A stretch of 64,000 nucleotides of DNA from Sipunculus nudus (taxonomy: Eukaryota > Annelida > Sipuncula > Golfingiida > Sipunculidae). Made by a program: the position numbers and the translations under genes. Shown here piece by piece: positions 11,787-62,254 of this stretch. The stretch spans positions 55,969,812 to 56,033,811 of the forward strand of contig CM049314.1 in the NCBI GenBank assembly GCA_026874595.1. The letters run 5' to 3'. The stretch's first letter is position 1. Every line of letters begins with the position of its first letter. Under the pieces are notes generated by a model. The model was not told the DNA's origin. It saw only the letters and a program-made list of their open reading frames with translations, and ran no database searches.

Positions 11787-11839
<53 letters not shown>

Positions 11840-27480: not shown

Positions 27481-27481
27481 T

Positions 27482-27985
27482 TAATAAAAGTTATATTACT
27501 GGGAAAAAAATGCTTAGCTTGGACAAGTTTTTTGTTAAGTGATCATAAAATCTTTCCTGAATATCTATAAAATGCATTATCTTTGGGCGCATAACTTTTT
27601 AAAATTGAATTATACAGATTTAATTTCTGGCATCAACAGAGGAACTATATAGAGATTATTTTTGGTAAATATTAAGAAAAACAGATGAGTGTATTTGACA
27701 TTTGGCAGTCCTGAGGTGTGAAAAAAGGTTTTTAATGAAAAATTGAGGATTTTCCTAATTTTCTCAATGGAACATAGTTGCAAAGACCCAGTTTTTGGCT
27801 TGGTAGGAGATCTTGGGGACATCTATCATTTGTCAAATTTAAGATTCCTTGGACTTAGGGTTTCAAAACGTGGCACATGTACGGACAGATAGATGGACGG
27901 ACGGACGGACAGACGGACGGACAGATGACGGGCAATGGAGCACGGCTATAGCTCAGATGACTTATAGTCAGCTGAGCTAAAAAAG
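27482..27985 (+). repeat. Dispersed repeat with (GGAC)n tract
   Basis: Related over about 490 bp to 39385-39875. Landmarks: TATTACTGGGAAAAAA, AAATGCATTATCTTTGGG, GCATAACTTTTTAAAATT, CCTGAGGTGTGAAAA, TTGGTAGGAGATCTTGGGGA, a GGACGGACGGAC tract near 27890-27925, and an end GATGACTTATAGTCAGCTGA. Looks like a non-autonomous mobile repeat; no coding capacity. Confidence 0.8.
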
Positions 27986-28531
27986 GAGTCAGTCTAAATT
28001 ATCATTTGCACTCAACACTGGACTTGTGTGATCAATAGTGATGCCTTTAATGAGGAAAAACTGGGAATACCAATATTAAATAGAAAGCAGTCCATGATGT
28101 GAAAATGTTCCCAAAGCAGCTAATGTCCAATATTGAGATTATGATATAAACCAATTGTAGCAAAAGATGACACTGATCAAACTGAATTTATTATGTCTCA
28201 AAACAAAAGGCAGGCACCAAAGAATGGTAATTGACAAATAGACAGGTCAATCTGGCATGAAGAAAAACTCAACAAAAACAAAATCCAGAAGATGCAATTT
28301 GATGGGAGACATTAAGGATTTAAGGTACAGTCCACAACCATACAAATAATGTAATGTCAAATTTAAGATAGATAAATATACATATCTGTAAAAATTCTGT
28401 TGTGAGCCTTTAAATTAATCAATGTATATAGTCATTTCATAGGCACCAGACATGATTACACTCCACATAAAGAACTATAGTCATGAAGAAATAGTTCTCA
28501 TGATTAGTCACAGTAGCACATGCAATTGCAC
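27986..28531. other. Non-coding stretch
   Basis: AT-rich; no exon or repeat recognised. Confidence 0.4.
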
Positions 28532-28770
28532 TCAATATGTTAATTGTAATTTCGATTGCACTGCACTGGGTATTTCGTCCCTCAACTTCCGTGTAAATAC
28601 TGTGGTATTCTTCCCTTTGTGTTTTTTGTGGACCACCGAACCCAGACCTGCCCCTGCCACTAAACTGAAGAAAGCTTGGGCGTCTTCAGCCAGATACTTA
28701 GAGTTCCCATCACGTTTTACAGGCGGGATAAGTCTATGGCGACAAGCCTGTGCGGCGGTGACAGTTTCCC
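28532..28770 (-). CDS. Unrecognised exon-like segment, open on both strands
   Basis: CpG-containing segment, unlike its AT-rich surroundings. On the minus strand an acceptor-like CTCTTACAG (28771-28772) opens a 79-codon frame with CRHRLIPPVKRDG, YLAEDAQAFFSLVAGAG and a basic HKKHKGKN stretch, ending in TGA at 28532. The plus strand is also open over the same bases and has acceptor- and donor-like sites (GTTTTACAG, CCCT|GTAAGA). I cannot decide the strand. Copy 2 (60937-61179) has four extra bases (AAAC) exactly at this splice-like site, which shifts any frame spliced there. It may be an exon remnant of a third gene or a 5' exon of the KDZ-like gene; no family recognised. Confidence 0.35.
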
Positions 28771-29839
28771 CTGTAAGAGTTTTGTCACTTTGGTTGGGTA
28801 CATCAGAGCACTGATGCAACCCCTATTGTAGTACTAGAAGGTTACCAAGCAGAGCTATAGGGACAAATGTGCTTCACACAGGAGCTTGACATGCCAGATG
28901 ACAAAAAATGCTCCAATACAATTTTTAACAAGTTCAAATTGATCTAATTAGATCCTTATGGGTACCATGTCAGACAAATGTAGATTCCAGAATAAAAATG
29001 CATAGTCTAAGATGGTCAATTTAAGATAATGATAATCAGACACTGATACTGATAATCAGATACTGATATCATATAAACACTTTGTTTATATTTAAATACC
29101 AAAAAACAAGAAAACGATAAACCATGATATCTGTATACCAACATATTGAAAAACAACAACTGAATCTTAAAATTAGATAAGTCAATTAGGTAACTCAACC
29201 CAGGTAGCTATACGTGCATTATAATTTGACTGATTGTGGTTAACTTAATTCTGCCCTATTGTCTGGTGTTATGCAGACTGTTTATAGAAATCTTTAAGGA
29301 AAGTATATTGTGGTTTTTAATTTGAGACCATGCTGAGAAGTATATGGATCATTATTGGATCAGGGTTCACCCTTAATTTTCCAGGGGATCTCAATGCAGT
29401 GGTCCATTTGTATTGGTAGGGTAGGAATGCGAAAAATATGTATCAGAATGTCACAGAAGGTCAAACAACATGGCACTCTAACTGTCAAATGGAGGGATGA
29501 CAAAGCAATACCTTGTCCAGCACTCCAGGATTTATCACCGCTAGAGCTTTAAATTGTACCCAAGTATAAGAATATCACATTCATAATTAAATAAATTCAT
29601 TGTTATCATATAGGGGAACAGTTCCAAATGAAAAACAAGCAGTATTCAGTAAGTGAAACAACTACAACCCATAATTGATCTACCCACTCAACTGGTCACT
29701 TAGACAAAGAGATAAATGTTGGTATCTGGCCAAACACCAAACCCTGAACAACCCTGAAGAAGTGTTATGATGATTTGATAATGGGAACCCATATATGTTA
29801 AATGGATTAAAACATGACTCAATGTTGCCATGAAAAGTC
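28771..29839. other. Mostly non-coding stretch
   Basis: AT-rich. At about 29453-29549 (plus) a short frame, HGTLTVKWRDDKAI, loosely resembles the W-x-D-K region of piggyBac-type transposases. It has no other piggyBac motif around it, so I do not call it. Confidence 0.35.
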
Positions 29840-29845
29840 TTTATT
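29840..29845 (-). terminator. AATAAA polyadenylation signal of the unknown four-exon gene
   Basis: TTTATT on plus (AATAAA on minus), about 85 bp past the stop at 29930-29932, in the context CAAATAAAGAC. It supports this as the gene's 3' end. Confidence 0.6.
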
Positions 29846-29929
29846 TGAAAATGAAACTGGAACTAGCACAAAATACAGCAAGGTGGGTACTTGCATCATG
29901 TAATTTTTCAAAAGAAAACTGGTTAACAA

Positions 29930-30049
29930 TCAGCATGGCTTGTCCTCTTCACTGAATTCTGGGTCCTCTTGAGCTTTTTGAGACATTTCCTCCTGGAGTG
30001 TGATAATGCCAGATTCCAAACACTGTTGTGCTCCGCTTTTATTGAGACC
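29930..30049 (-). CDS. Unknown four-exon gene, exon 4 (terminal)
   Basis: Minus-strand terminal exon: acceptor ATTCCAACAG, 39 codons and TGA. The peptide is acidic and Gln/Glu-rich (GLNKSGAQQC, ITLQEEMSQKAQEDPEF, EEDKPC at the end). Starts at phase 0, matching the CATGAG|GTATAT donor at 30622. A polyA signal follows. No domain recognised. Confidence 0.6.
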   Translation of the reverse strand, partial: GLNKSGAQQCLESGIITLQEEMSQKAQEDPEFSEEDKPC

Positions 30050-30621
30050 CTGTTGGAATTATTGATAAATACATCAGTGCAGGAAACAGGTGGTATATAG
30101 TATAAGTATAAATAAAACAAGCTGTTGTAAACATTGACAATCAGCCCACAGAGGGCGGGCACCATCATATGATACCTCAAATGTAATGATGTCCAATGTA
30201 CAAGGCACTTTAAGCACAGTGTACTCCAACCACAAGCAATGAAACATCATTATGCCACAATAAAAATAACATTGGTATAAACACTCAAAAATTTAGAAGC
30301 TGATCAGGTTTTTAATCAGATTTATAACTGCATTCCTTTAGTCATATATTGCCCTAAACCATAGTACCAAAATGACCCAATCATGAAGCATCACAAAATG
30401 ATGGCATATATTCCCACATCTATAACATTGTAGTTTCCCAGACAATTAATCCCCCTCAACAATCCCACTGTGTTCAAAATGGTGAAGCTTTATTATACAG
30501 CACTAGGAAAACAACATATGGGTTGCCTCATACCATAAATTTTCAGTATAGTAGACAAATCTAAAATGATTTTGTTTATGACACACCTATACAAAAGATT
30601 TTGATCTTACATGATATATAC

Positions 30622-30754
30622 CTCATGTCGTCGATCAATAAACACTGTATATGCATAATCAGAAAAGTCACTGTTATTTCTTGACTTATAATGACTATTA
30701 GGTGGCAATAATGAGTTGATGAAAGGATAATAACCAATGGCCACACCATTATCA
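30622..30754 (-). CDS. Unknown four-exon gene, exon 3 (acceptor lacks AG)
   Basis: Minus-strand exon with a donor GAG|GTATAT at 30622. Its frame reads DNGVAIGYYPFINSLLPP, then SRNNSDFSDYAYTVFIDRRH and leaves phase 0 as needed for exon 4. Upstream is a pyrimidine-rich tract (CCTTTTATTGTCCTGTC) followed by ATG|T where CAG|T would be expected. If splicing occurs after this TG, the length (133 nt) and phase fit exon 2 exactly. The only nearby AG (CAG at about 30798) leads into another frame with early stops. So either a rare GT-TG intron or a damaged splice site. Function unknown. Confidence 0.5.
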
Positions 30755-31268
30755 CATGACAGGACAATAAAAGGTCCGTTGTGTTTTATTTAGTATGCTG
30801 ACCAAGTTGTTAATCTTGAAAACTGACTCAATGCCCAAAGCATCCCCAGTGAAATAACATCAATCAAGCCAAATGAAAAGATATACATGTAAATGCATAA
30901 TGGGAGGAATTGTGTACACAAGTTTTAAATTATAATGTAGACAGAAGTGACTGATCGGATGGTGAGTTAGGTGAAAAGAGGAGCATTTGAAGGTAACACC
31001 ACCAATGTGCAATTCATGAATTTTTTTAATACAAGTTGTTGGTCGCATATTTGTGTACCATGAAATTTGTAGGAGGTTAGTTTAATAAATGTGTGATTTA
31101 TTCTCAAAAGGGCCTGTTGCACAGTCCAGGTAAACCTCATTTTAATCAGTTCAGCCCTCACACTGTTAATTACAGGCCCATGTGAAATAATAAAAGTTAT
31201 CAAATAGAACCCAAAACTTGGTGTACAGTACGATAGTTAAGGAAAAGAGAAACATTTAGACAACAAAC

Positions 31269-31401
31269 CTTTTGTCCAATGAGTGCAGTCCACAAAATTC
31301 CAGGCTCTTTCCATGCCCCACGCATACTATACAGGCATTCCCGGTTGTTAAACCAAGTCCAACAGTGAGTAGTGGCACATATATGAAAGCTGGTGGAACA
31401 C
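31269..31401 (-). CDS. Unknown four-exon gene, exon 2
   Basis: Minus-strand exon between a strong acceptor (TTTTCTCTCCACTCCTAG) and donor (AAAAG|GTTTGT), 133 nt. It enters with 2 nt (matches exon 1) and leaves 2 nt. The peptide begins VPPAFIYVPLLTVGLGLTTG, a hydrophobic stretch that might be membrane-buried or a fold core. It continues NACIVCVGHGKSLEFCGLHS, with C..C..H and C..H spacing that could bind a metal. I do not recognise the family. Confidence 0.65.
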
Positions 31402-33320
31402 CTAGGAGTGGAGAGAAAAAATGTGTCTTCAACCTATGTTATGACTATGGTACACGGTAAACATTTGGAGAAAAGCTAATCTCACTACTCAGATTTAACA
31501 TAAATCTGAGGTATCCAAAGTGCAATGACAGAATCCTGAAGGCACTAGATATAATGGTAGAGCCATGGTGTGCTGAGTGACCTGATTGAAGCAAGGATTG
31601 ATATGCTTTACCAAAGAGTGGTCAGTATCTGTCCTAGAAATATCAAGCCTCCCAAATAATGCAATTGAACATGACCATGAAGGCACGATCATGATGAAAG
31701 TGTTATCTTACCTAGGTGAACAAAACAAAACCAGGGAAAGTCTGGGTGTCAACCATGTTTGTAGGGTACCATGGAATAATGCAAGATAAGTTAAAACAGT
31801 GGGTTATTGGTTACAATAATTAAACATACAGTGTCACATGAATAAAATGTTTGTTTAATAAATGTACTTCTATATACAGTGTTCAAGTCATTCAATGACA
31901 ATGAAACAAAAGGTGAAGATTACATTGAAGCTGACAAAATGACTTTAGTATCATTAAGTGTTTATAACTTCCAAGTGACTGAAGCCATTATACAATGATG
32001 CCCCAAGTGTAGGCCACCTGGCCCAACATCCCAATCACCCAAAGAGATCATGAAATGAAATGTTCCTCATAAAAAGTAAGGAATGCACAGCTGGTAAGCC
32101 AGGGGTAATAACATGTGGCAATATAGTCAAATCATGCAAAGAAGAAGTGAATAGGCTTCACATATAAAGGTTAAAGTTGTGGGGAAAAGGCAGCAAAAAT
32201 AGTAATAATTGCCAATGATACCAGGTTCAGCACACCCAAATTATGTTATTAATAATAATAGGGTCAAGACAGCTGTCATAACCAGAGAAAAACATAGCAA
32301 AAGGTCAAATGTGACTGCCAAGAAATCAGTTATCTCATGGAACTAAATATGAGGGAAAAAATGGAATAAGGAAAAAAATTAATTGGACTGTTGAAGGTAA
32401 AAATGTTAATGTCAAAGTGAACATGATTCCCATAATAGGAAAATCTTGCAATGTATAAAGATTTCCCTTCCTGTTGTTATCCTGCACCAAATAAAACTGT
32501 GAATGTATATGTTCCAAGATTGTTTACTAGCTGGAAATGGATCAATTAGCTGATGATTATATGGTGTAGCCACTGTGAACTCAATACCTCATAAAATAGT
32601 AAATGTATTTCACATTGTTCAAGTTATGATTGTAAGTATGTGTCAACTAGATTTAACCTGATTAAACCTAGATTTAAGACAAGTATTTCATATTCTCTAT
32701 ATATTTGCAATTAATGTTGGTGTTGTTAATTACATTTCAAGAACACTACAACTAAGGGGTATAAAAATGATGTTAATTTTTATACCATTTAAATTGTAAG
32801 GGAATTAAATGTACTTTGCGAAAAGAAGAAATGAACTGAATGAAGTATGATATACCTTCAGATATAAAGCACATCTATACAACAAGTGTAGTATACAACC
32901 ACACTGCAGTGTTTCTCATAATGTTATTCACTATTCTGGGCCTGAATGTTTATGGTGCTGTGCCAGAATATAAACTGTTAAAGTTGAAATTAATTAGGCA
33001 TCTGCCACCCCTATTGAAAAGGTAAAAATATATCCATCATGAGAGTAATAGCACCTATGGGATATGGCAGACATTGTGACAGAGGTAAAAAATAAATGAT
33101 TCCCATTGCTTTTCAAGAATAAAATATGGGATCCTTGTATCAAGTAATATAGCACACCGAGATTACATTCACTAGCAGTCCTGGTAAATGGTTTTACAAT
33201 GATTGTAGCTGATGTACTAGATCCCGTTTATATTGACATGATAAGTCAGTTTAATGCAGAACTGACTGTGGCTGAAATAACAAAGTTTTAAGATCATGAA
33301 TGATCACCATGTGTGCTCAC

Positions 33321-41706: not shown

Positions 41707-42319
41707 TATTAAATTAAAACTACATAAGCACTGTACTTTTTTAATTTCTAAAAAATCAAATACATTATACTGTTCTGTGATGACACAACTATCCACACTT
41801 ACATAACTTTGGTCCTAGTATCGTTGATCCACTTACATTAAATTTATATAATAAATGAATTTAATAAAAGAGTATGAAATACTTTTCTCAGATAATAGGC
41901 AAAACGCCTAGTTAAAAAAAACACAGGGTGAAATAATCTAGCCTAAGGGTTTAAATTGGTCTAGAACAAATTATACTCTGATGTATTATCTAAGGCCTAA
42001 CAAAATTTATACCCTATGTATAACATGGGCTACACCATTTGAACACCGGGTGTACAAACAAGGGGAGTTTTTATGGCCATCTACATGTGCATGATGACTC
42101 CATGAATCATCGCTTAAGTTATGCTTATTTGTAAAGTCCATTCACCAATACGAAGGTAATTTAAAAGCAACAGTTAATGAAGAATATTCTGAATCCAGTG
42201 TCCGATACAGCAATCTTGAGAGAACATATGCCTGATATCATTGCTGGTACAGCCACAGCTTGTTGAAACATGACATTTCCTATGCACATAACAAAAATTA
42301 GGTATTGCGTAATTTGTTG
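41707..42319 (+). repeat. Young inverted repeat, left arm (613 bp)
   Basis: Reverse complement of 43820-44433, with only a few substitutions (for example GAACACCGGGTG against GAACACCAGGTG). The outer edge is TATTAAATTAAAAC and the inner edge GCGTAATTTGTTG. No coding content. Confidence 0.93.
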
Positions 42320-42424
42320 AAGTTATGGGCCCAAACGTAATGCACCTCGTAAAAACTCAGAAATATATTTACTCTCTTAACATAAGAATTGCTGATGTTA
42401 GATACTTTTTTTCAGGGATATAAC

Positions 42425-43070
42425 TGTTATGTAATCCCATCACACAGGCAAGCCCTCTCTCTTGTTGAGCTTGATCAAGCTGACTGGAGTTAATACCACA
42501 AGGAGCCCTTTTCTCCCCCCCCCCTTTCTGTTGACAGACCTGTACTTTAAATAAGAAATTTCATTTTTTTTCAGCATAGGCAGTAACAACAGAGACCCCT
42601 TCACCTACCCGTCCCTTCAATACACAGGACTAATAAACAAGACAAATCTGACAATTTTAATGATTAATAATTTTTTTTGTTGAGACTTGGACAATTTTGA
42701 TATTTTTATAGAAAAATATAGTCAGGAATACGATCCTAAAATTCAAATGTGATAAAGGATTAAGATCTAATGTAAGTGCTAACTGACATGATTTAAGAAG
42801 ATATAATTCTTTGTAGCAATTCATTCATATCTCTTTAAATTGGCTGGGCCTTGGTTTGGATAACACTGTAAACCTTATAATCAGGAATATTGGTCAATCT
42901 TTGTGGGATTAATTTTTAACTCATATGGCCATTATTTAACTTTTGAAAACGTAATGACCTTCACACATTATTTGTATATGAAATGTACTGTAACTTTTAT
43001 ATTACACTTTCTATAGGCCAATTTTTCCCCTTGGTGCATCATTAAATGGTTTCAGGCCACAGGTGTCATT
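42425..43070 (-). repeat. Diverged inverted repeat, right copy
   Basis: Partner of 38489-39144, lying inside the loop of the young inverted repeat. Adjacent 42355-42424 matches 36850-36925. Confidence 0.75.
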
Positions 43071-43819
43071 TATGCTTTAGCTTATGTCCATCATTCTATA
43101 ATTTAAAGAGTTTCATTTTAGCATGGCCATTTTCTCTCAGCTTTTCCCATGCTAATATACATCATAACCCAAAGAATTAAAAATAATTTGAAGTTGATAA
43201 AATTTTTTTTCCAAAACTCAGATGAGGATGTGACCCATGGGTCCCTTGTTGGTTAATGACCTCCAGGGGACCCTGAACTGACAACACTGCCATAAATCAT
43301 TTTTGTGCTATATCTCCAAAGCTATATTATCATATTATAATTTTCATTGTTGCAATATTATAATGTTTATTATATATCTTAAACTAAAAAGATGGCCTAA
43401 TTCCTGTGGAGATTTGGTCATATTTTGCCATAATCATGTTGACCAAATATAGGGTAAAACTTATCAAACTTAGAAATGTTCGAATACTTCTATATCAAAC
43501 ACAGCCCCCAGTTTCATTCAATCACTGTGAAACTAATACCATTGGTAAATATCTATTACCTTCAAACCTATTTGTTTTGTTTTTTTAATCAGGTCAAAGG
43601 TTAATATTTTCTTCCAACTTTTTTATAAATTGTTGCATCCAAATAAATGTTATTCATTTTGGTATCCTGTTCATTCACCATAATATAAAAGAATAATAAA
43701 TTTGAAAACTTGATCAATATGTATGCCAAAAATCATGACCATCAGTGTTGTAGTTATTGAGATGTTGCAGTTTGTTTTTATCAAATTTTCCATTATTCTG
43801 GGGGGTTACGCAAATTACG
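43071..43819. other. Loop of the young inverted repeat
   Basis: AT-rich sequence with no gene recognised. At 43801-43838 the words ACGCAAATTACGCAACAAATTA repeat in part just before the right arm. Confidence 0.4.
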
Positions 43820-44433
43820 CAACAAATTACGCAATACCTAATTTTTGTTATGTGCATAGGAAATGTCATGTTTCAACAAGCTGTGGCTGTACCAGCAATG
43901 ATATCAGGCATATGTTCTCTCAAGATTGCTGTATCGGACACTGGATTCAGAATATTCTTCATTAACTGTTGCTTTTAAATTACCTTCGTATTGGTGAATG
44001 GACTTTACAAATAAGCATAACTTAAGCGATGATTCATGGAGTCATCATGCACATGTAGATGGCCATAAAAACTCCCCTTGTTTGTACACCTGGTGTTCAA
44101 ATGGTGTAGCCCATGTTATACATAGGGTATAAATTTTGTTAGGCCTTAGATAATACATCAGAGTATAATTTGTTCTAGACCAATTTAAACCCTTAGGCTA
44201 GATTATTTCACCCTGTGTTTTTTTTTAACTAGGCGTTTTGCCTATTATCTGAGAAAAGTATTTCATACTCTTTTATTAAATTCATGTATTATATAAATTT
44301 AATGTAAGTGGATCAACGATACTAGGACCAAAGTTATGTAAGTGTGGATAGTTGTGTCATCACAGAACAGTATAATGTATTTGATTTTTTAGAAATTAAA
44401 AAAGTACAGTGCTTATGTAGTTTTAATTTAATA
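43820..44433 (-). repeat. Young inverted repeat, right arm, ending at the duplication junction
   Basis: Inverted copy of 41707-42319. Its outer end (GTTTTAATTTAATA at 44420-44433) overlaps the start of block copy 2 (44430) by AATA. Confidence 0.93.
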
Positions 44434-44771
44434 ATGTTATTAAATGAGACAAGTCTGGGATCAATTAAAAATTAACATATCACTCCCTTTCCGTCTCTCT
44501 CATTATTTCTCTTTTCTCTCTCTATCTCTCATTCATTCATTCATTCATTCTCTCTCTCTCTCGTCATATATATCTTCGGACAAAATAAAGTACTTAAATA
44601 AGACAGTTCTGGGATTCAATATGCATTCTTTCCGTGTCATTATTTCTCTTTCACTCTAACTCTCATACAGTCATGCATTCTAACTCCCTCGTAATATACA
44701 TCGTTATATGAGAAAATATAGTTATTAAATGAGACCAGTTTGGGATTCATGAAAATTAAATTAACTTCAAA
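44430..44771. repeat. Last three units of the CT-rich array (copy 2)
   Basis: Copy of 11859-12200: three cores with CATTCATT and TCTCTC runs between them. The earlier units are missing because the junction cuts the fifth core. Confidence 0.85.
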
Positions 44772-44937
44772 AACCGGTAGCTCCTGTATTTAAATGTTCC
44801 TTAATGTCTTCCATAATCTTCTTTTTCCATGACCGGTGCATATATGAACCGTGCAGGGTCATTTTCGACTGTAACGCTCACACACGGATATCTGGGCACC
44901 TGAATATTTGGTGAGCAGATATTTGGGAAGAGGATAA

Positions 44938-45254
44938 TTAGGAATCGATTGCCAGGCGGACACCCTCCATCTTCTGTGATTTTTTCGTCATTCTACTCAT
45001 GTTCAACATTGGGATCATCTGATAACGCCTGTAAAGCGACTTCTGCTTCTTTCCAATCAATTTGATGTGGATTGTGCAATTGAATTGGAACTTGGGACAG
45101 TTTGAGCACACCAATAGGAAATGTTTATGCATCTGAAAAAGGGCTCGACTTTTCCAGTTGTACAAATGGGACATTTCTTCTGGGAATGTGATTGGAAAGC
45201 TGTCAATACTTCAAAATTCATACAAAAGAATAGTCGCACCATTTCCAGAGACAC
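44938..45254 (-). pseudogene. Possible zinc-ribbon fragment (copy 2)
   Basis: Copy of 12367-12683 with the same frame break; the second frame ends LAIDS instead of LAINS. Confidence 0.25.
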
Positions 45255-45710
45255 AGTTTACTGTGGTAGTCTCGTTATATTCACAAATTAAGCTTTTTAT
45301 TTTGCTGTAATTGCCAATGTATATTACTGTTAATATTGAACCCTCAGGACTAACATGCCGTATCTACTGAGATTGCCTCTGACATAACCTTATTATCAAT
45401 TTTATCTGTCTTTTTGAAACAGGCTCATGCATCAGTCGACTCACAGGCTGAGACACATGTTGAATGGAAACAAAGGATGAACCAGATATTGTACGGTTTT
45501 GTTGGTTTATTTCCCTAATCATTTAAATCTTAAAGATCCTTTTGTACCTTGATTTTACAGGTTCTCATGCAATAATAGAATTTAAACCATTAGAAACTTT
45601 AAAATGGATGCAAATAGAAATACAAGCTACATGTATGTAAAGCCTACCAAAGCATGCACTCCCTTGGCATGCCTTTCTTTATATTTCGGGAATTTCTAAG
45701 AATTACTTAC

Positions 45711-46663
45711 ATGGTTTGTTTTCTGCAGTAAACTGTCATATGCTTCCTTGCACAGTTCCTCCAATTCTGGAGGATGGCCTTCTTTCTGCTGTGACACTCG
45801 TAGCACATCCCTTGGTCCCTTCTGCAGCAGCAGTCTCCACAAAAACCAAGCATCCTCCAGTCGGTCATGGTGCAGGGTGTTTTCACCTGGGTTGGGGGTT
45901 TGGTTGCACTTATGGCCAGGCACACAAGTACTCATATCACAACATCGGTTTTCTGCATTATATGCATCTGCTATAGCTCCAAATGAACACCCGCTCACTG
46001 TCAAGGATGCATGAAATTGTTCTAGCAAGCATGCTTCAAATACTGTGTCACGGGTTAACATGATATACTGATCCAGACTGCAAGCACTGAACATCTTACA
46101 AGCAGGCACGCCTTTGTCATTATCCCTTGTGTAATAAGAGTACATCTGTGATATTTTGCAACTGGAGCACCTGCCATGGTATGCTACTCCCCTTATCATT
46201 CCTCTCTTGGTAAATATTTGTGGAAAGTTTGGACGGTAGTCAATTTACAAAGTATTCTTACACTCTGGACAAGATGAACTGTGTGGAAGCAGGATAATAG
46301 ATTTATGTGCAGATTTGTTTGCACTAGCTTCAAAGAACACACTTGCAAATTTATCTAAATCTTGCTTACTCACACTAACTGCTGTTTTCTGGCAGATTAA
46401 GTGAACTTCCCTACAATGAGAAGCTTTGCATTCAAAGTGCACAGTGTTTTTCCCTGATCCTAGTGTCACAAAGACGTTGTTGGCTGGTTGTCCTTCCTTG
46501 TCCACATGTGCTTGGATGAATTCTTCTACAAGTTTCCACCTTTTTGTGGTATGCAGTGGGTAGTGGTTTGTTGCATAGCACAGGCAGTTCAGCCAGGGTA
46601 TTGGAATTACGTACTTTGGCATTGTTGTCCAGGAGAACTTGAGATCTGTATAATGGTTATGAT
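45711..46663 (-). pseudogene. KDZ transposase-like Cys-rich exon, orphan copy with same TAA
   Basis: Copy of 13140-14092 with the same acceptor, donor and in-frame TAA (46245-46247). Two amino-acid changes are seen against copy 1 (Q to H before FECKASHC; T to A near FFEASANK). The DGN, linker and catalytic exons are absent on the downstream (lower-coordinate) side, because the block starts at 44430 and is preceded by an unrelated inverted repeat. This copy cannot make a transposase. Confidence 0.7.
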
Positions 46664-47604
46664 CTGCAATCAGAGAGAAACTATATTCAGTATAAATTAT
46701 TTCTTTGTGCACAACAGAATATACTGTAACACGTTTTGGCAGTACTTATTTACTTCATTGATTTAATGGCATACAGACAGCCCCTTAGATTTCTTACAAA
46801 CAAGTATAAATCATCACAAGTAGGGATTGGTATGTACATCAGAATCTATTGAGCAGTAGTTATAATGACTGTCATCAATAACAGAACTGTCATTTGGATG
46901 TATTGCAGTCTCTAAATGCAAGCATGAGTTTTCAAGGTGCATTGAGCATTTTATTTTTTAAATTAACTATTCATGTGTGACCCACATTCTGGCCTGATAC
47001 CTGTTTTGTGGGTCTTTAAAGTGAATGTTGATTAATGGATTACAGGTTATATTTAAAAAAAGTGTTTGTTCACAGAAGAACAACCTGGGGCCAGTGCCAC
47101 TACGGACAAGGACTCTCTGCATTGCTCTAAACACATCTGGTCAGTTCAGCAATAAATTAAAAAGAAATCAAGAAGTACAATTAATATTTTATGCCCAATC
47201 CTTATAAAAGTAATTCAAATACCTCTGTTCATGATTCCCTTGCAGCCATGATTATTATATTTTATTCTTAGTGACATATCAGGACAAATCATGCTGATTT
47301 TACGGGAACATGCCCCCTCCATGAACCCTTGTATATCTGAATGTAAACATGTCTTTAAATCCAAACCAATATCCCAAGGCAATAAAAAATTCCAATCATA
47401 TTTTGCTCAGTTTCAATTTTGCAGATCTCACCACTCTCCAGTACCTTAATAAATGTTTCAATGATTCTTATTGGCACACTGTTATACAGATTCTATATAA
47501 CTTGCAACAGCATGTTTACCTTAACCCTTAGGCAAATACACAATTGAGTTTATATCACAGATTTGGATCTTGGAACAGTACCCACAGGATTTTCAGCCAC
47601 TGTT
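46664..47604. other. Copy of the KDZ-palindrome interval
   Basis: Equivalent to 14093-15033; nothing further seen. Confidence 0.4.
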
Positions 47605-50600
47605 CAGCCATTATAATTGGGATAGTTTGATCTAGCATTCATTTCAAAGTATGGGGTTCTTTTTCAGTGACATCCACATCACATGAATTCCACGTTAGTA
47701 GTGAATATTTTTAGTTTAGTTTTGTTCCAGATAATGCGAGGACAAACAAAAACTGACAGATGGTGATATTACATTTTTATTATAATAAAACATATAACCA
47801 ATACAACACCTCACTGACACAAATTCCCTCATTGGTCATGTCAAAAGTGTGGCACATGGTTCACCATTATAGCACATTAAATAATTAATTAATTATTATC
47901 AACTGACTAATGGTTAATGAATCACGGAGGGATTATAAATTTTATATATACATTAATGAACTTTGTCTAAAATTCACCACCACCATGAACTCGAGACACT
48001 TCCCAACCTGGAAATGAAAGTTGGTAATAGGAATATATTACTATATTTATAAATATATACCAGTGTTAGATAATACAGCACCCAGATTGTGACTGGTGCT
48101 CAGCTGGCATGGACTTTTATTTTTTTTTCCTCCTCTTAAGTGTAAGGTTTGTATTAAGTCTTACACTTAGTATGTGACTGAGGGTTACAAGTGGGAAGGG
48201 GAGGGGGGGGTTGTTCATATGATTCAGTGTCACTTAATACTGTCATGAGATAATCAAGCATGCTGAATGTGACTAGTGTAGGCTAAATGGACACCTCTTG
48301 TCTCTTCTGTAGTTGGTAGAGGTCTGTATAGTTTTATTATAGTGACTGGGGTGAGAATTTTTTGCCTGTCTTAGCGTAACAGTTATATGATAACAGTGAA
48401 ATTTTTTTTAGATATAAAGCTTATCAAGTATACACAAGTATAACAGGTGACTGTGATGGTCCATGGAAAATAGTTTTAAAGATTGTTTGCAAAAGAAACA
48501 CAAGCAATCAGTATTGTGTATACCTTTCAGTTCTTTCATCAAACATATCATTGTTCAATACATAAAATGCATATAATTTTTTTTAAAGTGTGAATGTGTC
48601 ATGTATATTAAAGTAGAACACACTTTTAATGAAGTAATTTTGGGAAATATTTCATTCTAAAATTTCATTTAAATACTGCTACCTAAAGGTTTTTAACTAG
48701 TTACCATTTTGTATACTATTAAATTATATTCCAGCCATTTTTACATGATAGAACCAATAATAGTCTGCAGTGAATTTTTTGAAGGGTGTGATTCAATAAA
48801 CTTTCATCTAAAGGTACTGACATTGTGCTCCACATTTGCAATGTGATTGCTGTGGGAATTATTTTTCTTTATATGTAATATTATATAATGTTGTACATCT
48901 ACAAAGAGACAAGTAAACAATTTTTGGTCAACTATATGTATATATTTATATATATATATATGTGTGTGTGTGTACTAATTTATAAAACATACAGCAGGTG
49001 ATTAGGAGGGAAGTAAGTCAAAGCTTAATAACACCCTGTTGAGGGGTTGTGATAAACAATGGAAAAGTCCTCTGTCAGCTCCCACGCACATTATATGCTC
49101 GCCTGGCCAGCAATCACCTAAGACTTCTGCAAACTCACAAGCATTGACAAAGCCCTGCGCAGATGAACCGGTCAACTAAATTACATTACACACCAGTGTG
49201 CAGTAACGCCCTGCGCTGGGCGGTTTTAGACCCATAGCCTGCGGGGGATCGCAGCCCGCGGCCCCCACAGGCCCCCGCATAGGATTCTTTGTGGGGCCGG
49301 ATGGGCTACATCTTAGAAAGTGCTGGGCAGGCTGAAATAAAGTCTGTGCGGGCAGGGCGTGCTGCGGGTTCATGATCTGGCAGTTCAGTAGAACATGAAT
49401 ATATCTTTTGATATAAATCATCTTTTGAAGTTATTGATATATTTGTATAAATGTTTAGGTGTTGTAAAAACAGTAATATGAAAAGATATATTTGAATAAA
49501 CGTTAATTTATTCCCATTAATCACTTACACTGACTGACAGTTGCAACAACACTATGAAAATGTGTCTTTTCTAGGTATCATGTCATTTTGTTTTACCAAA
49601 TAGATGATGCAGCATTAATCCGAAATCTGGATTATAAACAATTGTCCTTGCAATGGAAGCTGGTCTAACTTTGTATAAAGTTACCTGTCATAATGTTGTA
49701 TATGGACTGTAACCCTGTACTTGTGTCAGGTCTCACATTATTAATAATATGGCTGGGTGTGAAGCAAGGGCTTCAATGATTACCTTTGGTCTTGTAATAT
49801 TTAGACAGTTTGTGTCTACAGCTGGCTCTGTAGGTGACTCAATTGACCTAGAACTTGACAAAGCCTAAGGTGGACTACTTATCTAATTTGAACTTCATAT
49901 GCGGTCTATAATTGTAACTGAAATTGACCACTGGCTGGTCAAATCCATGTTTGGGCACTGTATAATGTAGTGATGACTTCAATAAGAATTTCTTAAAAAG
50001 ACTATTCATTAGTATAAATGGAAAAACTTTTACAATTCGGGAAAACTTTCGCATATATCACAAAATTAAATCCCTTGTGATCAAAAAGCAAGTAAAAGTA
50101 TCTGGTTATAGCTTACAGTATGAGCATTCTTTTATAAATTGTCAGAAATGGCATGCAAAGGTGGGAGACCTGAGAACACAATTTGGGGATACAAGCCAAA
50201 ACTGTCAGAGAAAACGTTCTTATGGAAAACCTGAAGTAGTGTTGTATTCATTTTTTTGTATCACTGATTAATTTATTGAGTTTGAATAAAGTGTTCCTCA
50301 CTTTCTTATTTGTTGAGCATATTTCTTTAATGCATTTAGCTGTGTAACAATAAAACATAGTTAAACTGCAGGTCATAGGTGAGGGTAATTAAGTAAGGTT
50401 TTGGCAGCAAAAGGCAGTTTTAGGCAGGTTATAACCTATTTTAGGCAGTTAAAGGCAGGTTTTAGGCTCTGCCCTGCCGAAAACAGCTTTTTGGCAGCCT
50501 AAAACCCAACCCTGATAAGTAACACCCCTCTGGTTATGTCTATCTAAATGAACATCCAGAACCTAAAGCCACATCAGATTACCCCTTTACTCCCTTGACC

Positions 50601-52484
50601 TGATTAGTCTCAGTTTCAGCTAATTAGCAGATTATGACTGAAAAGGTTTAAACAAGCAACACATCTTCGAAGTTTGATGGCTTGTGATTAGCTAAAACTA
50701 TTCCGAAGGGCAATTTTGGGTACACATACTTTGAAGAAATCTAACTTTTTTCTTCACTTTTTCTTTTATAAATTTATGTCAGAACAGACACAATAAACAA
50801 ATTTTCTTTATTTCCCCTGTAAAATATGAAAACATATTTAAGGTGCGTTAAATTATTAAGATATATTAAATCAATTTAACCTATCAAACATGTCTTTAAA
50901 AATAATTCATGAATTTTGGTTTGAATGATTGAAAAAAACGTATATTAATTAATTTTTCATTCCAGTCATCAAACTTTCATATATAAGAATAATATAAGGC
51001 TTATATTTGCAGCTTATATATGAGCTGTTAAAATATTCTTGATATGTAAACCTTTGGATCCAAAATTTTTTTTTTTTAATTATTTTGCGGGCTGGACTGC
51101 GGGCCAGAAACTTAAAAAAATGCGGGGCAGGGCAGGTGCGACTGAAAGATAATTTTGCGGGCAGGGCTGAAAGAATCACAGTAACTGCGGGGCAGGCTAG
51201 CTCAATTTTCTTCTTGAATTGCAGATTCTTGTGATTCTGTGATCTGCACTTTAGTGATGGAGTGTTATGTCTTCTGGTCTCCAGATTCAGGGTTCCTTTT
51301 TTCTTATCCCTTGGCAAAGAACTTTAAAACTGAGAGAGAAGCTTTAATGTCTATAGGTTTTTGGTCTTACCACTATCACAAGCCTTTTTTTCATTGAGAT
51401 CAGAGCAATGATTTATTGTCCTTCAAGGCAAAGTTAGTCTTTCATTTTTGTGATAAGCATTCCAAGCTAGTATGACAAAGGGGGATGTTATGTGGTGTCT
51501 CTAAAGTTTGGGTTTATTTTTCCTAATTCTGTGCCAGCCACTTCCACTTTTACAGAGTGATATCATTTGTTTTCAAAAATGGTTAGACTAAGTCAAGACC
51601 TTTGTGACAATCCATTTTACTATGAAAGAGAGTGATGGTTTGTTAACAATGGTTGTGGTTCTTAACAGTACCCCCGTGTCAAGCAGTTTACTTCACAGCA
51701 TACCGTGGTTTCATGTATGCACAGATGGGTCTAGCTTATCCATTTTCAAATGTTATGGCTAAGTTTGGTCACTGTACCTTTATTTTTGTCTTTGTAGCTA
51801 ATGTTTAAGAAATGTGTGACTGACTAGCGGATGGATGGATGGATAGACCTTAACACAGATGGAGAGATGGATGAACATTATGTTCGATGAACTTGCCTGA
51901 GCCACCTTCAGCATTGGTGGGAAATGGCTCCACTGATTTGTCACAAAAACACGAATGTGCTTAAATGTATAGTAATAATAATGAATAGTTTCCACCCTCC
52001 GTCACTGAAATACTAGTCCCACCTTTCACAGATGTTATGTCTAGTTCCTAATGTCTTTTTTAAAATGTCCTAGTCATATTGCTTTTTGTCACAACACACT
52101 CATAGTTTTTTAAATGCCATATAACAAAAACACTAGACCACCAGTGGTCGAGGGCTTGCCGGAAGTTGAAATGACAGGCAGACAGACAATAATAACTGTT
52201 GGTTTCCATCAATTGATTGAATTACGAAGCTTTGCTGAGGAACAGTGGCAACAGAACGACATATATTACACACATGAACATGAATCCACACCAGTGAAAA
52301 AAACCTATAATGGGCAGACATACTGACACACTTGAGATAACAGATGACCATATATTTTTTTTGGAGATCGTAACTAGAAACAAGATTTGATATAATTTGT
52401 GCAGATAAGGTTAACAGTTTTGGTAGTATGGCCATATAAATGATATGTTGCAGTATTTTGAGCGCAAACTGGCAGATAACTGAC
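47605..52484 (+). repeat. Palindrome 2, left arm (165 bp shorter near the centre)
   Basis: Copy of 15034-20080. Bases equivalent to 19898-20062 are missing: the join reads GAGCGCA|AACTGGC at 52466/52467. The matching bases in the right arm (about 52626-52790) therefore have no partner. Confidence 0.93.
49183..50514 (-). mobile_element. Possible hAT-like element in the arm (copy 2)
   Basis: Copy of 16612-17943: GC-rich patch, GGCAG repeats and a CAGGGTTGGG edge. Equally tentative. Confidence 0.25.
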
Positions 52485-52607
52485 ATATACCCAACATATC
52501 ATGTTATTGCCATATCTCAAAATTAGAAACCTCAATTACATAAACTTAAGCGTATTTTCTTCTCCAATATTTAAAAAAGTAATTTGGTTGCAATATTGTG
52601 TCACTTG
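52485..52607. other. Central spacer of palindrome 2
   Basis: Same 123 bp as 20081-20203. Confidence 0.8.
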
Positions 52608-55600
52608 GTCAGTTATCTGCCAGTTTGTCAGTTTTCCTCAAATTTCCCTGCTTGCTGGTTTTTGCATCTCACAAAAAACTTTATACAGACCACAATTTTG
52701 CAAGAATTTTGTTTAATCTGGTACAGCTTATGTCAGACATTTATATCTCGAAAGCAATTTTTCCTTTCAGGATATAGCGGCAAAAGACCCTGCGCTCAAA
52801 ATACTGCAACATATCATTTATATGGCCATACTACCAAAACTGTTAACCTTATCTGCACAAATTATATCAAATCTTGTTTCTAGTTACGATCTCCAAAAAA
52901 AATATATGGTCATCTGTTATCTCAAGTGTGTCAGTATGTCTGCCCATTATAGGTTTTTTTAACTGGTGTGGATTCATGTTCATGTGTGTAATATATGTCG
53001 TTCTGTTGCCACTGTTCCTCAGCAAAGCTTCGTAATTCAATCAATTGATGGAAACCAACAGTTATTATTGTCTGTCTGCCTGTCATTTCAACTTCCGGCA
53101 AGCCCTCGACCACTGGTGGTCTAGTGTTTTTGTTATATGGCATTTAAAAAACTATGAGTGTGTTGTGACAAAAAGCAATATGACTAGGACATTTTAAAAA
53201 AGACATTAGGAACTAGACATAACATCTGTGAAAGGTGGGACTAGTATTTCAGTGACGGAGGGTGGAAACTATTCATTATTATTACTATACATTTAAGCAC
53301 ATTCGTGTTTTTGTGACAAATCAGTGGAGCCATTTCCCACCAATGCTGAAGGTGGCTCAGGCAAGTTCATCGAACATAATGTTCATCCATCTCTCCATCT
53401 GTGTTAAGGTCTATCCATCCATCCATCCGCTAGTCAGTCACACATTTCTTAAACATTAGCTACAAAGACAAAAATAAAGGTACAGTGACCAAACTTAGCC
53501 ATAACATTTGAAAATGGATAAGCTAGACCCATCTGTGCATACATGAAACCACGGTATGCTGTGAAGTAAACTGCTTGACACGGGGGTACTGTTAAGAACC
53601 ACAACCATTGTTAACAAACCATCACTCTCTTTCATAGTAAAATGGATTGTCACAAAGGTCTTGACTTAGTCTAACCATTTTTGAAAACAAATGATATCAC
53701 TCTGTAAAAGTGGAAGTGGCTGGCACAGAATTAGGAAAAATAAACCCAAACTTTAGAGACACCACATAACATCCCCCTTTGTCATACTAGCTTGGAATGC
53801 TTATCACAAAAATGAAAGACTAACTTTGCCTTGAAGGACAATAAATCATTGCTCTGATCTCAATGAAAAAAAGGCTTGTGATAGTGGTAAGACCAAAAAC
53901 CTATAGACATTAAAGCTTCTCTCTCAGTTTTAAAGTTCTTTGCCAAGGGATAAGAAAAAAGGAACCCTGAATCTGGAGACCAGAAGACATAACACTCCAT
54001 CACTAAAGTGCAGATCACAGAATCACAAGAATCTGCAATTCAAGAAGAAAATTGAGCTAGCCTGCCCCGCAGTTACTGTGATTCTTTCAGCCCTGCCCGC
54101 AAAATTATCTTTCAGCCCGCACCTGCCCTGCCCCGCATTTTTTTAAGTTTCTGGCCCGCAGTCCAGCCCGCAAAATAATTAAAAAAAAAAAATTTTGGAT
54201 CCAAAGGTTTACATATCAAGAATATTTTTACAGCTCATATATAAGCTGCAAATATAAGCCTATATTATTCTTATATATGAAAGTTTGATGACTGGAATGA
54301 AAAATTAATTAATATAAGTTTTTTTCAATCATTCAAACCAAAATTCATGAATTATTTTTAAAGACATGTTTGATAGGTTAAATTGATTTAATATATCTTA
54401 ATAATTTAACGCACCTTAAATATGTTTTCATATTTTACAGGGGAAATAAAGAAAATTTGTTTATTGTGTCTGTTCTGACATAAATTTATAAAAGAAAAAG
54501 TGAAGAAAAAAATTAGATTTCTTCAAAGTATGTGTACCAAAAATTGACCTTCGGAATAGTTTTAGCTAATCACAAGCCATCAAACTTCGAAGATGTGTTG
54601 CTTGTTTAAACCTTTTCAGTCATAATCTGCTAATTAGCTGAAACTGAGACTAATCAGGTCAAGGGAGTAAAGAGGTAATCTGCTGTGGCTTTAGGTTCTG
54701 GATGTTCATTGAGATAGACATGACCAGAGGGGTGTTACTTATCAGGGTTGGGTTTTAGGCTGCCCAAAAGTTGTTTTCGGCAGGGCAGAGCCTAAAACCT
54801 GCCTTTAACTGCCTAAAATAGGTTATAACCTGCCTAAAACTGCCTTTTGCTGCCAAAACCTTACTTAATTACCCTCACCTATGACCTGCAGTTTAACTAT
54901 GTTTTATTGTTACACAGCTAAATGCATTAAAGAAATATGCTCAACAAATAAGAAAGTGAGGAACACTTTATTCAAACTCAATAAATTAATCAGTGATACA
55001 AAAAATGAATACAACACTACTTCAGGTTTTCCCTAAGAACGTTTTCTCTGACAGTTTTGGCTTGTATCCCCAAATTGTGTTCTCAGGTCTCCCACCTTTG
55101 CATGCCATTACTGACAATTTATAAAAGAATGCTCATACTGTAAGCTATAACCAGATACTTTTACTTGCTTTTTGATCACAAGGGATTTAATTTTGTGATA
55201 TATGCGAAAGTTTTCCCGAATTGTAACAGTTTTTCCATTTATACTAATGAATAGTCTTTTTAAGAAATTCTTATTGAAGTCATCACTACATTATACAGTG
55301 CCCAAACATGGATTTGACCAGCCAGTGGTCAATTTCAGTTACAATTATAGACCGCATATGAAGTTCAAATTAGATAAGTAGTCCACCTTAGGCTTTGTCA
55401 AGTTCTAGGTCAATTGAGTCACCTACAGAGCCAGCTGTAGACACAAACTGTCTAAATATTACAAGACCAAAGGTAATCATTGAAGCCCTTGCTTCACACC
55501 CAGCCATATTATTAATAATGTGAGACCTGACACAAGTACAGGGTTACAGTCCATATACAACATTATGACAGGTAACTTTATACAAAGTTAGACCAGCTTC

Positions 55601-57652
55601 CATTGCAAGGACAATTGTTTATAATCCAGATTTCGGATTAATGCTGCATCATCTATTTGGTAAAACAAATTGACATGATACCTAGAAAAGACACATTTTC
55701 ATAGTGTTGTTGCAACTGTCAGTCAGTGTAAGGGATTAATGGGAATAAATTAACGTTTATTCAAATATATCTTTTCATATTACTGTTTTTACAACACCTA
55801 AACATTTATACAAATATATCAATAACTTCAAAAGATGATTTATATCAAAAGATATATTCATGTTCTACTGAACTGCCAGATCATGAACCCGCAGCACGCC
55901 CTGCCCGCACAGACTTTATTTCAGCCTGCCCAGCACTTTCTAAGATGTAGCCCATCCCGCCCCACAATGAATCCTATGCGGGGGCCTGTGGGGGCCGCGG
56001 GCTGCGATCCCCCGCAGGCTATGGGTCTAAAACCGCCCAGCGCAGGGCGTTACTGCACACTGGTGTGTAATGTAATTTAGTTGACCGGTTCATCTGCGCA
56101 GGGCTTTGTCAATGCTTGTGAGTTTGCAGAAGTCTTAGGTGATTGCTGGCCAGGCGAGCATATAATGTGCGTGGGAGCTGACAGAGGACTTTTCCATTGT
56201 TTATCACAACCCCTCAACAGGGTGTTATTAAGCTTTGACTTACTTCCCTCCTAATCACCTGCTGTATGTTTTATAAATTAGTACACACACACACACATAT
56301 ATATATAAATATATACATATAGTTGACCAAAAAGTGTTTACTTGTCTCTTTGTAGATGTACAACATTATAAAATATTACATATAAAGAAAAATAATTCCC
56401 ACAGCAATCACATTGCAAATGTAGAGCACAATGTCAGTACCTTTAGATGAAAGTTTATTGAATCACACCCTTCAAAAAATTCACTGCAGACTATTATTGG
56501 TTCTATCATGTAAAAATGGCTAGAATATAATTTAATAGTATACAAAATGGTAACTAGTTAAAAACCTTTAGGTAGCAGTATTTAAATGTAATTTTAGAAT
56601 GAAATATTTCCCAAAATTACTTCATTAAAAGTGTGTTCTACTTTAATATACATGACACATTCACACTTTAAAAAAAATTATATGCATTTTATGTATTGAA
56701 CAATGATATGTTTGATGAAAGAACTGAAAGGTATACACAATACTGATTGCTTGTGTTTCTTTTGCAAACAATCTTTAAAACTATTTTCCATGGACCATCA
56801 CAGTCACCTGTTATACTTGTGTATACTTGATAAGCTTTATATCTAAAAAAATTTTCACTGTTATCATATAACTGTTACGCTAAGACAGGCAAAAAATTCT
56901 CACCCCAGTCACTATAATAAAACTATACAGACCTCTACCAACTACAGAAGAGACAAGAGGTGTCCATTTAGCCTACACTAGTCACATTCAGCATGCTTGA
57001 TTATCTCATGACAGTATTAAGTGACACTGAATCATATGAACAACCCCCCCCCCCCTCCCCTTCCCACTTGTAACCCTCAGTCACATACTAAGTGTAAGAC
57101 TTAATACAAACCTTACACTTAAGAGGAGAAAAAAAAATAAAAGTCCATGCCAGCTGAGCACCAGTCACAATCTGGGTGCTGTATTATCTAACACTGGTAT
57201 ATATTTATAAATATAGTAATATATTCCTATTACCAACTTTCATTTCCAGGTTGGGAAGTGTCTCGAGTTCATGGTGGTGGTGAATTTTAGACAAAGTTCA
57301 TTAATGTATATATAAAATTTATAATCCCTCCGTGATTCATTAACCATTAGTCAGTTGATAATAATTAATTAATTATTTAATGTGCTATAATGGTGAACCA
57401 TGTGCCACACTTTTGACATGACCAATGAGGGAATTTGTGTCAGTGAGGTGTTGTATTGGTTATATGTTTTATTATAATAAAAATGTAATATCACCATCTG
57501 TTAGTTTTTGTTTGTCCTCGCATTATCTGGAACAAAACTAAACTAAAAATATTCACTACTAACGTGGAATTCATGTGATGTGGATGTCACTGTAAAAGAC
57601 CCCCATACTTTGAAATGAATGCTAGATCAAACTATCCCAATTATAATGGCTG
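52608..57652 (-). repeat. Palindrome 2, right arm
   Basis: Copy of 20204-25247 and inverted copy of 47605-52484. It abuts the satellite as in copy 1. Confidence 0.93.
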
Positions 57653-59885
57653 TGCTATATCTCAGATATGGGTTACCCTAACCCTTCGGGCATGAAATAC
57701 TCCAGTAAGTGTTTGTTACTATTAATATATGCTATATCTAGGATACGGGTTACCAAACCCCTTCGGTATGAATACTCCAGTAAGTGTTTGTCATTATTAA
57801 TATATGCTATATCTAGGATCAGGGTTACCCTAACCCTTCATGCTTTAAATACTCCAGTGGGTGTTTGTCACTATTAATATATGCTTTATCCGGGATATGG
57901 GTACCCTAACCCGTCGGGCATAAAATTTTCCAGTAAGTGATTGTCACTTATAATATATGCAATATCCGGAAAACGGGTTACCCTGACCCTTTGGGCATGA
58001 CATACAACTTTGTGTTTGTCACTATTAATATATGCTCTATCCAGGATAAGGGTTCCCTAACCCTTCGGGCATGAAAAACTCCAGTAAGTGATTGTCACTT
58101 ATAATATATGCCATATCTGGAGAACGGGTTACCCTAATCCTTCGGGCATGACATACTCCTTTAAGTGTTTGTCACTATTAATATATGCTATATCCGGGAA
58201 ACGGGTTAACCTAACCCTTCAGCTATGAAATACTCCAGAAAGTGTATGTCACTATTAATGTATGCTATAACTAAATACGGGTTACCCTCACCCTTCAGGC
58301 ATAAAAAACCCCCGTAAGTGTTTGTCACTATTAATATATGCTATATCCTGGAAACGGGTTGCCCTAAAACTTCGGGTATGAAATACTCCAGTCAGTGTAT
58401 GTCACTATTATTGTATGCTAGATCTCAGATACAGGTGACCCGAACCCTTCGGGCATGAAATACTCCAGTAAGTGATTGTTACTATTAATATATGCTATAT
58501 CCGGGAAACGGGTTACCCTGATCTTTCCGGCATGACATACCCCTTTAAATGTTTGTCACTATTAATATATGCTATATCCGGAGAACGGGTTACCCTAATC
58601 CTTCGAGCATGATATTCACCAGTAAGTGTTTGTCACTTATAATATGCTATACCCAAAATACGGGTTACCCTAACCCTTCGGGCATGACACACCCCTTTAA
58701 GTGTTTGTCACTATAAATATATGGTATATCCAGGATACGGGTTAGGTTTATCCTCCGGGAATGAAATATTCCAGTAAATGTTTGTCCCTATTAATATATG
58801 CTATATCCGGGATACGGGTTACCCTAACCCTTCAGGCATGATTTACCTCTATAAGTGTTTGTTGCTATTAATATATGCTATATCCAGGATACGGGACACT
58901 ATCCCTTCAGATATGAAATACTCCAGTCAGTGTTTGTTACTATTAATATGTACTATATCCAGGATACAGGTTACCTTAACCGTTTTGGCATGAAAGACTC
59001 CACTAAGTGTGTGTCACTATAAATTTATGCTTTGTCCGAAGATGGGTTACCCTAACCCTTTGGATATGATGGAAATACTCCAGTAAGTGCTTGTCAATAT
59101 ATGTTCTTTGCCATAACCCCTTGGCCATAAAATAAGCCAGGAAGTGTTTCTCACTATTAATATATGCTATATCTGGGATACGGGTTACCCTAACCCTACG
59201 GGCATGAAATACTCCAGTAGGTGTTTCTCACTATTAATATATGCTATATCCCAGATACAGTTTACTCTAACCCTTCGGGTATGAAATACTCCAGTCTGTG
59301 TTTGTTATTATTAATATGTACTATATCTGAAGACTGGTTACTCTAACCCTTTGGATATGATGGAAATAATCCAGTAAATGCTTGATACTATTAACTGTAC
59401 TATACCTGGGATATGGGATACCCTAACCTTTTAGGCAGGAAATTCTCCAGGTAGGGTTTGTCCTGTTAATAAATGTTATATCCGAATACGGGTAACCCTA
59501 ACCCTTCGGGCATGAAATACTGTAGTAAGTGTTAGACATAATTAGTATTTGCTGTATCTGGTATACAATTACCATAACCCATTTACATGAAAAACTTCAG
59601 TAAGCGTATGTAACTATTAATCTATGTTATATCCAGGATACAGGTTACCCTAACTCTTTAGGCATGATATACTCAAGTAAGTGCAGGTCACTTTTAATAT
59701 ATGCTTTAATCAGGATGCGGGTTACCCTAATCCTTTGGCATGAAATACTACTGTAAGTGTTGGTCACTGTTTTGAACTATTAATATATGCTAAATCCGTA
59801 TCCAGGATGTTTGTCACTATAAGTATATGCTATGTCCGAATCAGGTTACCCTAACCCTTCGGATATGAATGAAATATACCAGTGA
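57653..59885 (+). repeat. 77-bp satellite, array 3 (copy 2)
   Basis: Unit-for-unit copy of 25248-27480, including the variant units. The array was therefore copied as a block, with no visible unit gain or loss. Confidence 0.95.
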
Positions 59886-59886
59886 T

Positions 59887-60390
59887 TAATAAAAGTTATA
59901 TTACTGGGAAAAAAATGCTTAGCTTGGACAAGTTTTTTGTTAAGTGATCATAAAATCTTTCCTGAATATCTATAAAATGCATTATCTTTGGGCGCATAAC
60001 TTTTTAAAATTGAATTATACAGATTTAATTTCTGGCATCAACAGAGGAACTATATAGAGATTATTTTTGGTAAATATTAAGAAAAACAGATGGGTGTATT
60101 TGACATTTGGCAGTCCTGAGGTGTGAAAAAAGGTTTTTAATGAAAAATTGAGGATTTTCCTAATTTTCTCAATGGAACATAGTTGCAAAGACCCAGTTTT
60201 TGGCTTGGTAGGAGATCTTGGGGACATCTATCATTTGTCAAATTTAAGATTCCTTGGACTTAGGGTTTCAAAACGTGGCACATGTACGGACAGATAGATG
60301 GACGGACGGACGGACAGACGGACGGACAGATGACGGGCAATGGAGCACGGCTATAGCTCAGATGACTTATAGTCAGCTGAGCTAAAAAAG
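59887..60390 (+). repeat. Dispersed repeat with (GGAC)n tract (copy 2)
   Basis: Copy of 27482-27985 with one noted base change (ACAGATGGGTG against ACAGATGAGTG). Confidence 0.8.
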
Positions 60391-60936
60391 GAGTCAGTCT
60401 AAATTATCATTTGCACTCAACACTGGACTTGTGTGATCAATAGTGATGCCTTTAATGAGGAAAAACTGGGAATACCAATATTAAATAGAAAGCAGTCCAT
60501 GATGTGAAAATGTTCCCAAAGCAGCTAATGTCCAATATTGAGATTATGATATAAACCAATTGTAGCAAAAGATGACACTGATCAAACTGAATTTATTATG
60601 TCTCAAAACAAAAGGCAGGCACCAAAGAATGGTAATTGACAAATAGACAGGTCAATCTGGCATGAAGAAAAACTCAACAAAAACAAAATCCAGAAGATGC
60701 AATTTGATGGGAGACATTAAGGATTTAAGGTACAGTCCACAACCATACAAATAATGTAATGTCAAATTTAAGATAGATAAATATACATATCTGTAAAAAT
60801 TCTGTTGTGAGCCTTTAAATTAATCAATGTATATAGTCATTTCATAGGCACCAGACATGATTACACTCCACATAAAGAACTATAGTCATGAAGAAATAGT
60901 TCTCATGATTAGTCACAGTAGCACATGCAATTGCAC

Positions 60937-62248: not shown

Positions 62249-62254
62249 TTTATT
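62249..62254 (-). terminator. AATAAA polyadenylation signal (copy 2)
   Basis: Copy of the signal at 29840-29845. Confidence 0.55.

Follow-up and report, generated by a model that had tools for sequence, protein, structure and literature searches.

Rearrangements of the DUP-TRP/INV-DUP type, as described for PLP1, have two junctions that place an inverted triplicated segment inside a duplication; the part of that report drawn on here gives 1–4 bp of microhomology at the second junction (Jct2) for 14 of 16 cases, with one of the triplicated segments measuring only ~254 bp (PMC4352052). Inverted repeats at the first junction are usual, perhaps not required, according to an excerpt of a further report (PMC6902434). 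Small inverted triplications (SIT) average 148/160/148 bp with a 30-bp spacer in the section of the report considered (PMC13334657), and ODIRA is described, again in an excerpt, as a process that generates inverted copies when replication goes wrong at short interrupted inverted repeats (PMC10766183).

We analysed 64,000 bases of an animal genome (hereafter, the window; 35.6% G+C, no Ns), in which an inverted copy (43820–44433) sits between the unit of block copy 1 and the start of block copy 2. We regard the locus as probably a germline tandem-duplication junction with an inverted templated insert, made by replicative template switching (probability of roughly 0.57). Like the DUP-TRP/INV-DUP rearrangements at MECP2 and PLP1, so far as the excerpted accounts describe them (PMC4352052, PMC6902434), it would have an inverted segment between two direct duplicated copies, with two junctions across which the direction of copying is turned and then restored via short microhomology; the AATA shared at its outer junction lies within the 1–4 bp given for second junctions in the excerpt. 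Unlike those rearrangements, the inverted segment is 614 bp long and no long inverted low-copy repeat was seen at the first junction; they are known from patients, whereas this is an animal genome in which the third copy is expected beyond position 64000. The locus also has the features of a FoSTeS/MMBIR scar—a nearby templated insert (inverted, ~1.5 kb away) with both joins apparently derived. It would share with SIT, in the portion of the report used (PMC13334657), the direct–inverted–direct order that is attributed there to replication errors, but its 614-bp arms, its 1.5-kb spacer and its tie to a ~32 kb duplication set it apart from the SIT class. The best reading is that the locus resembles a DUP-TRP/INV-DUP template-switch scar and belongs to a kind already known, with full membership depending on a third copy that would lie outside the window.

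Structure of the locus

All structures were obtained by comparing the window with itself (self-BLAST). The inverted repeat and the two parts of the block pair have bit scores of 1,116, 14,766 and 21,237, far beyond chance. The features are as follows.

11780–11836, plus strand: (AT)n tract (TRF), ending 22 bp before the breakpoint at 11859, assigned as native
11859–31591, plus strand: block copy 1, as far as its match to copy 2 can be followed in the window (BLAST); assigned as native at its left end from the satellite across 11859
15034–25247, no strand assigned: older palindrome in block copy 1, arms 15034–20080 and 25247–20204 (BLAST, 99.3% identical)
41707–42319, plus strand: left arm, assigned as the native source copy of the 613-bp inverted repeat (BLAST and family profile)
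42320–43805, plus strand: spacer between the arms (BLAST, nhmmer)
43806–43834, plus strand: inner junction J1 with stutter, the inverted-copy boundary lying at 43819/43820 (word search)
43820–44433, minus strand: right arm, assigned as the derived inverted copy of 41707–42319 (BLAST, family profile)
44430–44433, plus strand: outer junction J2, the AATA with which the inverted copy ends and block copy 2 begins (self-BLAST)
44430–64000, plus strand: block copy 2, assigned as derived at its left end (BLAST); still matching at the window edge, with its end beyond the window

The arms (41707–42319 against 44433–43820) are identical at 611 of 614 positions, with two substitutions and a single one-base gap. 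The left half of the spacer is a diverged dispersed repeat with relatives at 39147–38485 and 36955–36851, both on the minus strand (BLAST, nhmmer). The block matches directly in two parts (11859–19897 with 44430–52466, and 20061–31591 with 52465–64000); between its copies, at 99.8–99.9% identity (BLAST), there are 14 substitutions and small indels, and a single stretch of 165 bp is missing from copy 2. An earlier note on this DNA, made from the letters alone, had described the right arm as an inverted copy of 41707–42319 running to 44433, block copy 2 as matching from 44430, and the two as overlapping by the 4 bp AATA. These coordinates are exact to the base: in the self-comparison, the inverted match stops at 44433 and the block match begins at 44430, and the overlap is exactly 4 bp, the adjacent base mismatching on either side.

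An arrangement of this kind could be an assembly or library artefact, either a fold-back chimera or an end-to-end join of two haplotypes, and whole-genome amplification does produce inverted chimeric reads (PMC6218980 and PMC13265396, in the parts of these reports drawn on). Copies at 99.8–99.9% identity could be haplotypes, and the left part holds most of the substitutions that separate the block copies (12 in 8,039 bp compared with 2 in 11,531; p = 0.0014). An artefact is nonetheless improbable, given the two substitutions and one indel between the arms, the 14 substitutions, small indels and 165-bp absence that separate the block copies, and the lack of Ns in the window. Fold-back artefact copies are usually identical, and joining contigs on a 4-bp overlap is not normal assembler behaviour; both points count against an artefact.

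The left-heavy distribution amounts to a substitution density ~9 times that of the right part (11859–19897 against 20061–31591, divided at the deletion beside the palindrome centre), and could result from gene conversion of the right part, a haplotype switch or shared polishing. A break-induced-replication signature, that is, raised substitution in copy 2 near the junction, was considered and found unsupported, with private substitutions lying on both copies: the left palindrome arm has 3 in copy 1 (L1) and 5 in copy 2 (L2), and the right arm 0 in R1 and 1 in R2.

Native and derived copies

Template switching requires that the right arm and the start of copy 2 be the derived ones, and both requirements are borne out, the first by a repeat-family profile and the second by a local satellite. 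The profile was built from three relatives in the window (at 39.5, 37.0 and 27.6 kb, minus strand) with this locus left out. It gave one unbroken match of 80.2–80.3 bits at 42273–42411, across the boundary between left arm and loop at 42319/42320; in the right arm it gave only 7.7 bits (E 0.11) at 43866–43832 and stopped at the boundary. For control joins, the 60 bases ahead of the loop piece were replaced by 1,000 shuffles of themselves and by 1,000 random 60-base pieces of the window; none of the 2,000 reached the native 80.3 bits (maxima of 69.3 for the shuffles and 74.0 for the random pieces), and the loop piece with the right-arm context scored 58.5 bits against the native 80.3. When the arm side alone was compared pairwise with the relatives, its score was reached by 1 (39.5 kb), 163 (37.0 kb) and 774 (27.6 kb) of 2,000 shuffles; the right-hand context, used as a control, was equalled by 578, 559 and 1,617 of 2,000 in the same order. 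Similarity on the arm side alone is thus clear for the 39.5 kb relative, weak for that at 37.0 kb and not visible for that at 27.6 kb. Because the family profile crosses the left boundary and not the right, the left arm appears to be native and the right arm an added inverted copy.

At the other breakpoint, two satellite units align across 11859 in copy 1 (scores of 65 and 73), but their alignment in copy 2 begins no earlier than 44430 (51 and 56); BLAST also aligns 11837–11904 with 12122–12188 at 79%. Since the local satellite extends to either side of 11859 in copy 1, and copy 2 has it truncated, copy 1 appears native at this position and the start of copy 2 derived. Internal evidence therefore tells native from derived copies at both joins, which are fixed to the base.

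The same observations bear on whether 41707–44433 is a DNA transposon with 614-bp terminal inverted repeats that lies by chance at the block boundary. The arms are symmetric, and their outer ends can be read as TA-flanked TTAAATTAAAAC, which we take to resemble the ends of an element that targets TA; TA is readable at both outer ends, and, being self-complementary, is indistinguishable from the arm itself. Against a transposon, it is only at the left arm that the family runs through the inner end. The other profile matches above the inclusion threshold (near 3.9, 27.6, 37.0, 39.5 and 60.1 kb, the last being the block copy of the 27.6 kb match) are all on the minus strand with no inverted partner, in a search whose profile covers little of the arm, such that a diverged inverted partner could be missed. 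No further copy of the arm was found within the 64-kb window, nor were several copies sharing both terminal inverted repeats, as a transposon of this type would have. Nothing in the window matches the sequence to the left of 41707, which is therefore not the upstream continuation of the block; insertion into the block is contradicted, because it would require that continuation to lie left of 41707. On these grounds, within the scope of the window, we rejected the transposon as very unlikely.

Inner and outer junctions

At J1, TTACGCAA occurs at 43806, 43815 and 43827, and elsewhere in the window only at 40483. A second word, CAAATTACGCAA, stands twice in tandem at 43811 and 43823, with its complement in the left arm at 42305. 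The longest word common to the two 20-bp flanks of the boundary is 9 bp; 331 of 50,000 random window positions share at least 9. The stutter could reflect repeated short false starts on one template, a native inverted pair that guided the switch, or later slippage. The inverted pair seen at J1, CAAATTACGCAA at 43811 with the complement at 42305, is only 12 bp long and may itself be a product of the event. An ODIRA product would be expected to have short interrupted inverted repeats at either end of the amplified segment and a replication origin within it; here such a pair would be present only if the stutter is native, a comparison that concerns J1 alone.

At J2, at least 4 bp are shared in 2.2% of random inverted joins within the window and in 2.5% of joins drawn near the two breakpoints (200,000 draws each). 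The AATA overlap is mildly above chance and fits microhomology-guided joining, and is weak evidence, not decisive alone. A hairpin centred on 44434 (9-bp stem, 2-bp loop) was considered as a cause of J2 and set aside as not special: a scan of the whole window for stems of 9 or more with loops of 4 or less counted 76 such settings.

One event or two

The earlier note had reasoned that the breakpoint shared by the inverted repeat and the duplication makes two separate events unlikely. This argument is faulty. Suppose that an older inverted copy of more than 614 bp stood at 43820, and that a later tandem duplication of ~32.6 kb joined 44433 to 11859 via AATA. The arm would then seem to end at the junction simply through having been cut there, and the result would look identical; the shared breakpoint is no coincidence under such a history, because a cut arm ends at the junction automatically. 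More generally, the exact coincidence of an inverted repeat's end with a duplication junction does not, alone, speak for one event.

We consider this two-event history possible and yet rather unlikely. It explains the shared breakpoint with no extra assumption, and the region had made an inverted duplication before (15034–25247). Nominally, divergence is higher between the arms (2/613) than between the block copies (14/19,570). With two substitutions observed in 613, where the rate seen in the older palindrome would give an expected 3.8, the arms also agree with that palindrome in divergence. The apparent age difference between arms and block is, however, not significant (Fisher p = 0.083 against the whole block), and two independent derived events would be needed close together. 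Comparing the arms with the left block part alone (12/8,039) gave p = 0.26, and with the older palindrome (30 mismatches in 4,865) p = 0.57. Divergence leans slightly towards an older arm and decides nothing between one event and two.

The single-event reading is preferred, because it takes fewer independent rearrangements and because a two-junction structure of this kind is a known product of template switching. What the earlier note had proposed as template switching is upheld at the level of the derived joins, the J1 stutter and the J2 microhomology; its single event has the standing of a preference. Under the preferred reading, rightward synthesis would have proceeded to ~43819 and then turned onto the opposite strand at 42319, copying 613–614 bp back down to 41707, before a jump via AATA to 11859 restored rightward synthesis and gave rise to copy 2. 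The left-arm segment would then be present three times (direct, inverted and direct) inside a duplication of ~32 kb—a DUP-TRP/INV-DUP in miniature. Its third direct copy would be expected ~10.1 kb past the window edge, if the offset of 32,409 at the end of the window holds. We infer that both switches belonged to one event, that the event was replicative, as opposed to end joining of a copied fragment, that it took place in the germline and that the third copy lies outside the window.

The two histories differ in what they predict after the copy-2 version of 43819, ~12.2 kb past the window edge: with one event, copy 2 would exit there into native sequence, lacking the inverted arm, whereas with two events a longer inverted arm would follow. 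If there was one event, a type of scar described for human genomic disorders is also formed and retained elsewhere, in this case with base-level junctions and with internal evidence alone sufficient to separate native from derived copies.

The older palindrome and other features of the window

Both block copies contain a palindrome (15034–25247 and 47605–57652) with arms of ~5 kb that are 99.2–99.3% identical, separated in copy 1 by a spacer of ~123 bp. The palindrome predates the block duplication, because 32 variable columns (gap columns included) are common to both copies, in the pattern of L1 = L2 differing from R1 = R2. Near the centre, 165 bp of the left palindrome arm are missing from copy 2 (19896–20060 of copy 1; deletion point 52465/52466), and CA is common to the deletion ends. 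Palindromes are prone to asymmetric deletion at the centre, and this absence looks like such a deletion.

More tentatively, and with somewhat less confidence than we attach to the two-event history, one germline event may have created a DUP-TRP/INV-DUP on a miniature scale in a non-model animal, at a site chronically prone to template switching. The block unit would already have held the palindrome with 5-kb arms, at whose outer left end a candidate stutter also stands, and copy 2 would later have lost 165 bp at the palindrome centre. If so, the locus would be a natural record of repeated replication U-turns.

At the outer left end of the palindrome there is a short candidate CAGCCA stutter, and its outer right end abuts the start of a minisatellite at 25248 (unit of ~77 bp, 25248–27363, repeated in copy 2).

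On the minus strand, 2247–2927 matches KDZ transposase (PF18758; 39.8 bits against a cut-off of 26.6) and 13128–13673 marginally matches the CxC5 domain (PF18718; 27.3 bits against 26.9); the two are perhaps the ends of one split transposon gene. The block start at 11859 falls between them, and of the two frames only that of CxC5 recurs in the part of copy 2 inside the window (45696–46244). A search for structured RNA gave no Rfam matches at gathering thresholds in the window, which otherwise contains short interrupted reading frames and many simple repeats. Taken with the two domain matches, these frames and repeats indicate a eukaryotic, probably animal, genome. At 7001–7552 there is a tandem duplication with a 274-bp unit, its copies ~97% alike, that looks young.
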